From Candidatus Liptonbacteria bacterium (GTDB lineage: Bacteria; Patescibacteriota; Minisyncoccia; UBA6257; 2-01-FULL-56-20), in assembly GCA_016204355.1 (NCBI GenBank), contig JACQKT010000019.1, positions 1-33,143 on the forward strand: 33,143 bases of DNA. Direction: 5' to 3'. Every line of letters starts with the position of its first letter. The stretch's first letter is position 1. Shown piece by piece: positions 26,250 to 33,143 of the stretch. The translations under genes were made by a program, and so were the position numbers. The notes beneath the pieces were generated by a model. The model made no database searches and was not told where the DNA came from. It worked only from the letters and a program-made list of their open reading frames with translations.

Positions 26250-27230
26250 TTACTGACCCGAAAAAAGTATCGGTACGCGCAATTCGTCGGAGTGTTCGGG
26301 AAGCCCGGAAGGATTGTCTTTTTCCAGAACAAGAAAACCGCTGCCGGCCGTCGGTTTTTCGAATTCGATAACGGCGTTGAACGGCACGAATTCGGTCGTC
26401 ATCCAGTCGCTCTGCGCCTGCGCTATCGAAGTGGCAACAAGGTTGCCGTTCACGTCAAGAATTTTTACCGGAAAACTCGCCTCGAAAAACCAGTTGCCGC
26501 GTGCATTGCCCCTGACCGTCAACGGGCTTGAAACGGTTTCGTTTGCTCCCGGTGATTCGACCCGTATCAGATTTTCTTTCGGGCACGCGGCGAATTCGCA
26601 TCTGGGCCCGCTGCGCCCCACGGTTGTGCCGTCGGAACACAGTTTTGCTTCCATAGTGCATGCTTTTTGTACATCCTGCGCTGGATTAAGGCTCCACGTC
26701 GAAAAATTGAGATAAGCGGCGAAAAATATCCAGACGAAATATGGGATGAGCAGGTATGCCGCCGGTTTCGAAATCCTGTAAAAGTTGACGATAAGATAAA
26801 ATATCGCGAACAAAAGCGCCAATATTTCAAAAAACGCCAAGCCCGGGAGCCGCAGGCCAAAAAATATGTATACCCACAAAACGTTCAGAACATATTGGGA
26901 AGCGAAAATCGCGATGACGTTGAATTTTTGCAAATCCCCCGTCCAGAGACGTTCCGACCAGCTGTTCCACGCCTTTTTTTCACCGACGAAAACCGGATTA
27001 ACGACTTTCCAGTCGCTTTTCCAGACGAGGAACAGCGAAATGCCGATGAGGAGATAAAGCACCGTCCACGCCGGCCCGAACATCCAGTCGGGCGGCGTGA
27101 ACGCCGGTTTTTCGAGCCCCGAATACCAGCCCGACAAAATCGCCGGCGCCGTGAAAAGATAACCGATGACGGCTGCCGATTCCGAAATCGCGACGGCTAT
27201 GACGAACTTAAAAAGATTGTTTGGTTTCAT
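26250..27230 (-). CDS. TspO/MBR membrane protein fused to a Cys-rich segment and a Gmad2 domain
   Basis: 326 residues from the chosen ATG. Residues 1-183 are TspO/MBR (tryptophan-rich sensory protein, binds porphyrins and related ligands): five helices with WYSGLEKPAFTPPDWMFGPA at 35-54 and a roughly 35-residue insertion at 70-104 that normal TspO lacks. Residues 190-216 contain CTMEAKLCSDG...GPRCEFAACP, with four cysteines. Residues 222-326 resemble Gmad2, an immunoglobulin-like exported domain (SPGANETVSSPLTVRG...). The usual TspO is about 160 residues, so this is a fusion placing a folded domain outside the membrane. A start nine codons earlier lies inside a palindromic operator. The gene follows its probable regulator. 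Confidence 0.85.
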   Translation of the reverse strand: MKPNNLFKFVIAVAISESAAVIGYLFTAPAILSGWYSGLEKPAFTPPDWMFGPAWTVLYLLIGISLFLVWKSDWKVVNPVFVGEKKAWNSWSERLWTGDLQKFNVIAIFASQYVLNVLWVYIFFGLRLPGLAFFEILALLFAIFYLIVNFYRISKPAAYLLIPYFVWIFFAAYLNFSTWSLNPAQDVQKACTMEAKLCSDGTTVGRSGPRCEFAACPKENLIRVESPGANETVSSPLTVRGNARGNWFFEASFPVKILDVNGNLVATSIAQAQSDWMTTEFVPFNAVIEFEKPTAGSGFLVLEKDNPSGLPEHSDELRVPILFSGQ

Positions 27231-27242
27231 AATTCTCGAAAC

Positions 27243-27280
27243 AAAACATTCTAACATTCTGCAGAATGTTAGAATGTTTT
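27243..27280. promoter_or_regulatory. Nested palindromic operator, copy 1 (in front of TspO-Gmad2)
   Basis: A perfect 38-bp palindrome centred on CTGCAG. Each arm holds ACATTCT twice at 8-bp spacing, giving four half-sites. The inner 32 bases are identical to copy 2. It begins 13 bases before the TspO ATG and overlaps the last codons and stop of the regulator gene. TAGAAT inside it could be a -10, so bound protein would block the promoter. Confidence 0.75.
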
Positions 27281-27538
27281 CATGAATTTAAGGAAAGACT
27301 TTCCGTATGGCGACAAAGAATGACTTACTCGACGACCCGTGTATTTTTTATTTAAAAGGCCGGCGTGAACAAGCGCTCTGGTATGCTGAGACATGGTTTT
27401 AAAGTTTGCTCCAAGTGTATTTGCGATTCCCTCGAGTGTAATTCCCTCATTTCTCTCTACGGCAGCCAAAATGGCAATACGCCAATGATTGGCGGCACCC
27501 TTAAAATAACGTTCCAATTGCTTCGGCGTTTTCCTCAT
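27269..27538 (-). CDS. ArsR-like winged-helix transcription regulator
   Basis: 89 residues with one winged helix-turn-helix domain: helices in AANHWRIAILAAVERNEGIT and LEGIANTLGANFKTMSQHTRALVHAGLL (recognition helix at about 48-60), and a wing at KKYTGRRVSHSLS. No cysteine or other metal-sensing residue is visible, so the signal is unknown. The gene lies between two copies of a nested palindrome: one 27 bases before its start, the other covering its last codons (ACA TTC TAA lie within it) and preceding TspO-Gmad2. This is strong circumstantial evidence for autoregulation and control of TspO. No SD was seen. Confidence 0.85.
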   Translation of the reverse strand: MRKTPKQLERYFKGAANHWRIAILAAVERNEGITLEGIANTLGANFKTMSQHTRALVHAGLLNKKYTGRRVSHSLSPYGKSFLKFMKTF

Positions 27539-27564
27539 GCACTAATGCTAACACATCTTTCTCA

Positions 27565-27598
27565 GACATTCTAACATTCTGCAGAATGTTAGAATGTC
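27565..27598. promoter_or_regulatory. Nested palindromic operator, copy 2 (between regulator and helicase)
   Basis: A perfect 34-bp palindrome, identical over 32 bases to the site at 27243-27280, with the same four ACATTCT/AGAATGT half-sites. It lies 27 bases before the regulator start and about 54 bases before the helicase -35, so it could control both divergent genes. Confidence 0.75.
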
Positions 27599-27651
27599 GT
27601 ACGGCGGGGTGGACGCGATGAAAGATGGCGGCACAAGTCGGGGAACCTTTT

Positions 27652-27680
27652 TTGTAATTAAAGCTTTTTATCTGTATGAT
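27652..27680 (+). promoter_or_regulatory. Promoter TTGTAA-N17-TATGAT giving a leaderless helicase mRNA
   Basis: The -10 ends six bases before the ATG at 27687, so transcription should start at or within a base of the start codon. No SD is present. Confidence 0.55.
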
Positions 27681-27686
27681 TCCCGC

Positions 27687-28952
27687 ATGACCGGAACAGA
27701 AAAGAGTTTTTACGGGCTCGGCATCGCTCCCGCAATTCTTGAAATTATCTCGAAACTCCGCTTCATGTCCCCCACTCCGATACAGGAGCAGTCGATACCG
27801 GTCGCCATCGAAGGAAAGGATCTGATGGGCATAGCCCAGACCGGAACGGGAAAAACGCTCGCTTTCGGAATCCCGCTTATCCAGCACGTTCTCCACGGAA
27901 AAATATCCGGGCTTGTCATAGTGCCCACACGCGAGCTCGCGCTCCAAGTCGACGAAACTATCCGCAAAGTCGGCGCGCCACTCGGCCTAAAAACGGCGGT
28001 ACTAATCGGCGGCGAGTCGATATTCGGACAGATAAAGGATATCCGCCGCAATCCGCAGATTATCGTCGGCACTCCCGGCCGCATCATCGACCATCTCGAA
28101 CAAAAGACCATTTCCCTGCGGAACGTCGGCGTGCTTGTTCTCGACGAAGCCGACAGGATGCTCGACATGGGCTTCGCGCCCCAGCTCAAGCGCATTCTCC
28201 CGAATCTGCCCCGAGAACGGCAGACTATGCTCTTCTCGGCTACCATGCCCGAAGAAATCGTTTCCATCGCCAAATCCTATATGAAGCTTCCGATAAGGGT
28301 CGAGATCGCGCGCTCCGGAACCACGGTAAAAGAGGTCACGCAGGAATTGTTTTTCGTCCCCCAGGAGCAAAAACCGAAACTTCTCGAAAAAATACTTCAG
28401 GAATACCGCGGTTCGGTCCTGGTGTTTTCCCGCACGAAATACAGCGTCAAAAAAGTCTCGGCGCTTCTCCGCGCGCTTGGCCATTCTTCGGCTGAAATCC
28501 ACGGAAACCGTTCGCTCGGCCAGAGAAAGGAGGCGCTTGAAGGTTTCAAAAGAGGAAAATACCGCATACTCGTTGCGACAGACATCGCCTCGCGCGGCAT
28601 CGACGTTACAAACATCGAACTCGTCCTCAATTACGACTTGCCGCAGAACCCCGAAGATTACGTGCATCGCATAGGCAGAACCGCCCGCGCCGGAGCCGGC
28701 GGCCACGCGATTTCTTTCGCCCGCCCGAACCAGATCGGAGACGTGCGGACCATCGAAAGACTGACAAGAAAGACTCTGCCCGTTTCAAAAGTCCCGAATC
28801 TACCCCCGCCGCTTCCTTTCAAATTCAGAATGGAAAGGGCCGGAGGCAAGCCGTTCGTAAAACACAAAAAACCTTTTCATTCCCGCGGTTATGGCGGCAC
28901 AAGGTTTGAAGAAAAACGCCCGCGCTCGAAATTTTTCAAAGGAAGGAGGTAG
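27687..28952 (+). CDS. DEAD-box ATP-dependent RNA helicase (RhlE-like)
   Basis: Unwinds or remodels RNA duplexes. 421 residues: upstream aromatic F8, Q motif PTPIQ at 29-33, Walker A AQTGTGKT at 50-57, PTRELALQ at 80-87, GG, TPGR at 129-132, DEAD at 153-156, SAT at 184-186, then VFSRTK, ATDIASRGIDV and HRIGRTARAG in the second RecA domain, and a basic Arg/Lys/Gly tail (last about 45 residues) that would bind RNA. The frame is open upstream to 27594, but that portion overlaps the operator and promoter and is not helicase-like. The divergent regulator and shared operator suggest condition-dependent expression. It ends 12 bases from the convergent arginase-like gene. Confidence 0.95.
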   Translation: MTGTEKSFYGLGIAPAILEIISKLRFMSPTPIQEQSIPVAIEGKDLMGIAQTGTGKTLAFGIPLIQHVLHGKISGLVIVPTRELALQVDETIRKVGAPLGLKTAVLIGGESIFGQIKDIRRNPQIIVGTPGRIIDHLEQKTISLRNVGVLVLDEADRMLDMGFAPQLKRILPNLPRERQTMLFSATMPEEIVSIAKSYMKLPIRVEIARSGTTVKEVTQELFFVPQEQKPKLLEKILQEYRGSVLVFSRTKYSVKKVSALLRALGHSSAEIHGNRSLGQRKEALEGFKRGKYRILVATDIASRGIDVTNIELVLNYDLPQNPEDYVHRIGRTARAGAGGHAISFARPNQIGDVRTIERLTRKTLPVSKVPNLPPPLPFKFRMERAGGKPFVKHKKPFHSRGYGGTRFEEKRPRSKFFKGRR

Positions 28953-33072: not shown

Positions 33073-33143
33073 TGGCTCCGGGAGCAGGGATCGAACCTGC
33101 GACATCCTCCTTAACAGGGAGGCGTTCTACCGCTGAACTATCC
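33073..33143 (-). tRNA. tRNA-Asn(GTT), first about four bases outside the window
   Basis: Read leftward: the D arm GTTC-AGCGGTA-GAAC, an anticodon stem CCTCC/GGAGG with loop CTGTTAA (anticodon GTT), the T arm GCAGG-TTCGATC-CCTGC, acceptor 3' strand TCCCGGA, discriminator G and an encoded CCA. The 5' acceptor strand is cut by the right edge after its last three bases. Confidence 0.95.

Follow-up and report, generated by a model that had tools for sequence, protein, structure and literature searches.

Organisation of the locus

The window, that is, the whole stretch of DNA analysed, comprises positions 1-33143 of contig C4 in its own genome (G000; 694 kb, 28 contigs, 90% complete), which its relatives place in Patescibacteria. 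A gene for an 89-aa wHTH protein (27269-27538, minus strand) lies between two perfect palindromes, and the unit formed by the palindromes and the small gene measures approximately 350 bp. The 34-bp palindrome (27565-27598) forms the 5' (left) end of the unit and lies 26 nt before the start codon of the wHTH gene, and the 38-bp palindrome (27243-27280) forms the 3' (right) end. Their lengths, their positions and the 32 bases identical between them (27246-27277 and 27566-27597, sequence ACATTCTAACATTCTGCAGAATGTTAGAATGT) agree with a preliminary description of this DNA, as does the observation that the 38-bp palindrome supplies the last codons of the gene and its TAA stop (27269-27271). Half-sites in this palindrome start at 27246, 27254, 27263 and 27271; the 8-bp step proposed earlier thus holds inside each arm, but the step across the centre is 9 bp. 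When the 15-mer ACATTCTNACATTCT was searched with up to 2 mismatches, 5 occurrences were counted in the window against 0.16 expected, and 100 shuffles gave a maximum of 2. The whole genome contains 7 palindromes at up to 2 mismatches, and the reversed control gave 0.

Downstream of the unit, a TspO-Gmad2 fusion gene (26250-27230, minus strand; PF03073, 4.5e-40; PF10648, 8.9e-15) starts 15 nt beyond the shared 32-bp core, and no promoter-like site was found between the 3' palindrome and this gene. On the other side lies a divergent DEAD-box RNA helicase ORF (27594-28952, plus strand). Its longest form starts at 27594, inside the palindrome; the true start is likely near 27687, which fits the DEAD domain as placed by Pfam coordinates. 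The two palindromes therefore flank the regulator as had been described, one before TspO-Gmad2 and the other towards the DEAD-box gene. A -10-like hexamer, TAGCAT, preceded by TG (27545-27550, minus strand), follows the 5' palindrome by about 15 nt and matches only 4 of the 6 consensus positions; a full TATAAT is present at about equal offset from the 5' palindrome in three other loci (L018, L031 and L069). The Rfam scan of the window returned nothing except one tRNA gene (33076-33143, minus strand), which runs off the window end.

The 89-residue protein has a predicted ArsR fold

An AlphaFold2 model of the protein, built from a 44-sequence alignment, reached a pLDDT of 95.9. It predicts helices at residues 5-15, 18-29, 35-42, 46-58 (the recognition helix) and 77-88 and strands at 62-67 and 70-75. 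The resulting topology, a1-a2-a3-a4(recognition)-b1-b2-a5, is the winged-helix fold as in the ArsR/SmtB family. The top Foldseek matches of the model were CadC, ArsR, HlyU, PagR and CzrA, with query TM values mostly of 0.76-0.88, and a PDB profile search gave HlyU (2.3e-9) and also CadC. The model and its matches bear out the earlier view of an ArsR-like regulator. NCBIfam HTH_metalloreg matches 44/44 members, with a score of 34.4 for the window protein against a cut-off of 55, and Pfam HTH_5 was below its cut-off on the window protein. No cysteine is found among the 89 residues, and hence there is no thiol metal site. Since the ArsR/SmtB family has non-metal members, such as HlyU and SdpR, the missing cysteine excludes thiol metal sensing, not membership in the family. 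Judged by the predicted structure, the window protein is a DNA-binding protein of ArsR fold that lacks a thiol metal site, although it falls below the curated family-model cut-offs.

The unit is conserved in Patescibacteria

Homologous loci numbered 62 in GTDB genomes, nearly all of them from Patescibacteria, and a whole-genome search added more; 75 homologous genes from Patescibacteria, mostly Paceibacteria, were examined. In this pattern-seeded sample, with palindrome-scoring thresholds that were set after looking at the data, a palindrome was present on both sides in 52/75 genes, and the comparison with related loci suggested at the outset thus found the layout conserved. The 5' palindrome was present in 64/75 and ended 10-50 nt before the start codon in 52 of these 64 (median, 25); the 3' palindrome was present in 63/75, with the stop codon inside it in 51/63. 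In a number of loci, the 5' palindrome is followed at about 14 nt by a -10-like hexamer. Given this spacing, the palindrome would cover or overlap the -35 region, from which we infer that the wHTH protein represses itself from the 5' palindrome; the copy at 27565-27598 is a probable autoregulatory operator. The gene downstream of the unit is convergent in 18/71 loci, where no promoter is expected, so the 3' copy cannot generally be the operator of the next gene.

The neighbours of the unit mostly change between loci. Recurrent ones are few, namely TspO and PIF1-like helicases (next to L019, L020 and L168). In five loci (the window, L037, which holds a divergent wHTH relative, L038, L040 and L042), the gene directly downstream of the unit encodes TspO, and the palindrome is found inside tspO at identical codons in L040, L167, L219 and L226; in all, about eight loci have the palindrome next to or inside a TspO gene. 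Such identical placement in four loci indicates that part of the copies are old and have been retained. Among the sampled loci, the DEAD-box gene of the window is the only one next to a unit. Of the compact regulon that had been proposed to join TspO with the helicase, the TspO link therefore recurs and the helicase link does not; as a general rule, such a regulon is ruled out by the changing neighbours and by the random gap types of the solo copies described below. Four loci (L027, L032, L037 and L074) have a LexA-like gene close to the unit. In addition, the sequence TGAATACKCC follows several palindromes on the right flank in different genomes (L024, L038, L040 and L042), and in L040 it reads as MNTP at an ORF start.

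The recognition helix covaries with the centre of the palindrome

Residues 48 and 51 of the recognition helix covary with the central bases of the palindrome. Units with T48/Q51 have the centre CTGCAG in 47/52 palindromes and units with N48/Q51 have CTATAG in 10/13, whereas 36/46 palindromes of E51 units are not GC- or AT-centred and mostly read CTTGAG, CTCAAG or CTTAAG. Per-unit Fisher tests, which ignore phylogeny, gave p = 1.6e-9 for Q51 against a GC or AT centre and p = 1e-5 for N48 against AT; on a wHTH tree of poor resolution, N48 seems to have changed about seven times, and a tree-corrected covariation test was underpowered. Among 189 genomes of the class, 27 have both the motif and the wHTH gene, 13 the motif only, 17 the wHTH gene only and 132 neither (Fisher p = 5e-12). 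Collectively, the helix covariation and the co-occurrence indicate that the wHTH protein very probably binds the palindrome. Distant wHTH paralogs, which have SDH or GEH helices, lie between palindromes of other sequence, such as GTATTTTGCAAAATAC / CTATTCAAGTATTTTGCAAAATACTTGAATAG around L118 and L119. The palindrome core of the divergent paralogs with an SDH recognition helix (L118/L162, L119 and L120/L181) is TTTTGCAAAA.

Solo copies occur between and inside genes

With gene calls based on coding score, 89 solo sites over all loci were divided into 40 lying no more than 150 nt before a gene, 20 (about 22%) inside genes and 29 in neither position. Intergenic solo sites were 11% divergent, 72% tandem and 17% convergent, against 15%, 70% and 14% for random intergenic positions, which gives no enrichment at promoters; 39% of the intergenic solo sites lay within 20 nt after a stop codon, against 16% at random. 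Another 20 sites, whose genomes mostly lie outside the family, comprised 12 in tandem, 4 in convergent and 1 in divergent gaps and 3 inside genes. In the genome of the window, comM (C10), a MutT-like Nudix gene (C21) and dinB/glyoxalase (C22) each have a site upstream; a further site lies inside fmt (C23) and another between the ends of two converging genes (C16). Most genes at solo sites are unrelated housekeeping genes. A regulon centred on promoters, as first envisaged, does not agree with gap types that are as random, with 20/89 sites in genes and with a 3' copy that is kept before convergent genes. Abundance without relation to promoters had been named as evidence against that regulon; the locations point this way, but the seven copies in the genome do not.

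The arms of the palindrome change together at every variable position. Site-specific palindromic extensions of at least 6 bp were present at 19 sites against 1.0 expected, and extensions of 4 or more were seen in 0/17 in-gene sites. In one family, the presence of the palindrome is patchy (15/38 genomes), with 1-13 copies at up to 2 mismatches in each of the other site-bearing genomes. The regulator was not detected in 13/40 site-bearing genomes of the class, some of which may have lost it from view through MAG incompleteness; perfect sites with the regulator undetected occur in G145 (four) and G036 (three). As a separate observation, the paralogous genes at L138, L154, L155 and L156 (G009 and G028) encode about 600 residues and share a CxxC pattern close to the start; a Pfam scan of the one at L155 gave no match. 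Their palindrome lies about 10 to 120 nt from the start, just after the stop of the upstream gene.

In-gene copies mostly translate as HSNILQNVRM. In PurB of G008, the copy is an in-frame insertion: 21 aa are present that are absent from three family relatives (G032-G034). The copies in MiaA and PurL lie in variable loops, and PDB alignments agree with insertion for PurB and GuaA. Other carriers, several of which were named by reading of the sequence, are fmt (G000 and G007), an FAD oxidase (G007 and G008), GuaA, MnmA, YchF, RNase HII, CysS, Nudix and tspO. Some copies in fmt, miaA, the FAD oxidase and tspO are at identical codons across genera or families and keep their symmetry, which fits a maintained function better than fresh mobility. 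The tspO copy of L167 (G034) has the inner sequence TATTTTGCAAAATA, and its TTTTGCAAAA core is that of the other wHTH paralog of the same genome, L119; this match hints that binding to a copy inside a gene is still possible.

Similarity of the wHTH protein does not follow the host

Between the genome of the window and G007, of the same genus, DnaK is 87% identical and the wHTH protein 48%, whereas the values for L019 are 70% and 84%. Since wHTH similarity does not track host similarity, the simplest reading of these identities is that the unit moved horizontally, with ancient paralogs as the alternative for G007. The view that the unit moves draws on the changing neighbours and on the identity pattern, part of which ancient paralogy could explain. 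L026, a Kiritimatiellaeota record outside Patescibacteria with a 3.3-Mb genome, has a wHTH protein 80% identical and a DnaK 60% identical, and is possibly a transfer or a misbinned contig. No empty site was found for the whole unit, no target-site duplication was detected at the sites (12 observed against 7 expected), and no transposase is linked to the unit. Mobilisation by a RAYT was ruled out by the genome of the window, which has no Y1 transposase (PF01797); 6/15 searched genomes have one. Viral carriage was also rejected, as IMG/VR gave no match to the palindrome and a single wHTH relative.

Comparison with known systems

REP-RAYT systems consist of a gene with the palindrome on either side, which the encoded protein is presumed to recognise, together with solo copies elsewhere; complementary changes preserve the palindrome (PMC2817692). 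The wHTH gene likewise is bracketed by two palindrome copies, with solo copies elsewhere and complementary arm changes. However, the REP-RAYT product is a Y1 HUH transposase (PF01797), whereas the wHTH unit encodes a predicted ArsR-fold DNA-binding protein; the copies of REP-RAYT run to hundreds, usually over 100, against 7 in the genome of the window and 1-13 elsewhere in the family searched; and the wHTH palindrome has no GT(A/G)G head. Rickettsia palindromic elements (RPE) are palindromic repeats that sit in frame in metabolic genes of unrelated kinds and encode a conserved peptide (PMC10969869), and the wHTH palindrome resembles them in its in-frame insertion in unrelated genes and in its own conserved peptide. 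It is set apart from RPE by size (about 32-38 bp against about 150 bp); it is, unlike RPE, linked to the gene of a protein that very probably binds the repeat, and it occurs in a different phylum. With ArsR/SmtB repressors such as CadC, CzrA, HlyU, SdpR and PagR, the wHTH protein shares the fold, the size, a probable dimer binding to inverted repeats and a putative autoregulation. Unlike them, it has an operator copy at both ends of its gene, one of which encodes the stop codon, it has no cysteine, and its candidate operators are dispersed inside genes. In open-access PMC papers, no description of a palindrome-bracketed wHTH element was found.

Interpretation of the unit and its dispersed palindrome

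The best-supported reading, which we favour with modest confidence, is that of a horizontally moving, palindrome-bracketed repressor unit whose palindrome is dispersed in the manner of REP or RPE without a transposase. The ArsR-fold protein without a metal site would bind the palindrome, probably as two dimers on four half-sites, and the 5' copy, over or next to the gene's own promoter, would let the protein repress itself. The unit would have moved between Paceibacteria lineages, and its palindrome would have spread both to intergenic gaps, where solo copies often directly follow stops, and in frame into conserved genes; a copy landing at a useful place, above all at TspO, may become a working operator. 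A bolder and more tentative version holds that the repressor's own operator is what moves, and that it spreads through Patescibacteria with no transposase while helix and palindrome co-evolve. If true, operators would be inserted even in frame and would wire genes to whichever repressor copy is present. Recurring target families (TspO, Nudix, NYN, PIF1 and MTES_1575) count against a mobile unit and fit a regulon. It is indeed conceivable, if rather doubtful, that the protein is an ordinary autoregulated repressor of a small stress regulon (TspO, MutT-like Nudix, DinB, ComM, PIF1 helicase, NYN and MTES_1575 nucleases), with the palindromes as plain operators and the in-gene copies as roadblocks. 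The sites upstream of comM, the MutT-like Nudix gene and dinB/glyoxalase agree with this, as do a similar Nudix gene in G145 with a site 25 nt upstream, another G145 site after a comM-like gene, TspO as 4/81 targets with none listed for 140 background genes, the lack of a LexA match over the cut-off in the genome of the window, and the G034 in-gene TspO site with the core of the other paralog. Nudix genes, however, make up 5/81 targets against 3/140 in the background and are not clearly enriched, most targets are unrelated housekeeping genes, the solo sites show no promoter enrichment and lie inside genes in 20/89 cases, and the regulator is undetected in 13/40 site-bearing genomes, including G145 with its four perfect sites. 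For some of the sites, those at TspO in particular, an ordinary regulon may hold; function enrichment is otherwise weak. A more specific candidate, an SOS-like regulon replacing LexA, had been prompted by dinB, comM and the missing LexA match, and was rejected in view of the LexA-like gene near four units and the mixed targets.

It is unlikely that the palindromes act chiefly at the RNA level, forming hairpin terminators or 3' stems that stabilise mRNA, with the wHTH association being secondary. A stem of 15-17 bp with about -20 kcal/mol (z about -7), the excess of sites 20 nt or less after stops and the covarying arms would suit such a role, but residues of the recognition helix track the palindrome centre, the 5' copy stands upstream of the wHTH gene in most units, in-frame copies would terminate their own messages, and the terminator scan calls neither palindrome of the window. 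A few copies per genome, both in and between genes, would also suit a chromosome-organising protein that binds such sites (parS/matS-like) without regard to genes. This we consider very improbable, given that copies in coding sequence arrive as insertions, that their presence in one family is patchy and that the protein shows a horizontal pattern.

Gene control is little studied in Patescibacteria, which are tiny and mostly uncultured, and the unit may give a cross-genus DNA-binding specificity code for a regulator family of these bacteria. To our knowledge, dispersed palindromes inside bacterial coding genes are known mainly from Rickettsia, where they have no known source or partner protein. 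The dispersed coding palindrome described here has a candidate partner protein with a recognition helix that varies along with the repeat, and with such a small soluble candidate, what maintains and spreads such palindromes becomes testable. Other short peptides (RQAQGK, DPFDSTQGRPEPGR and similar) are also repeated in frame in the loops of conserved proteins, at L131 (PurL), L040 (hsdS) and L187, L189 and L191 (MiaA), which suggests further coding-repeat families in Patescibacteria genomes.
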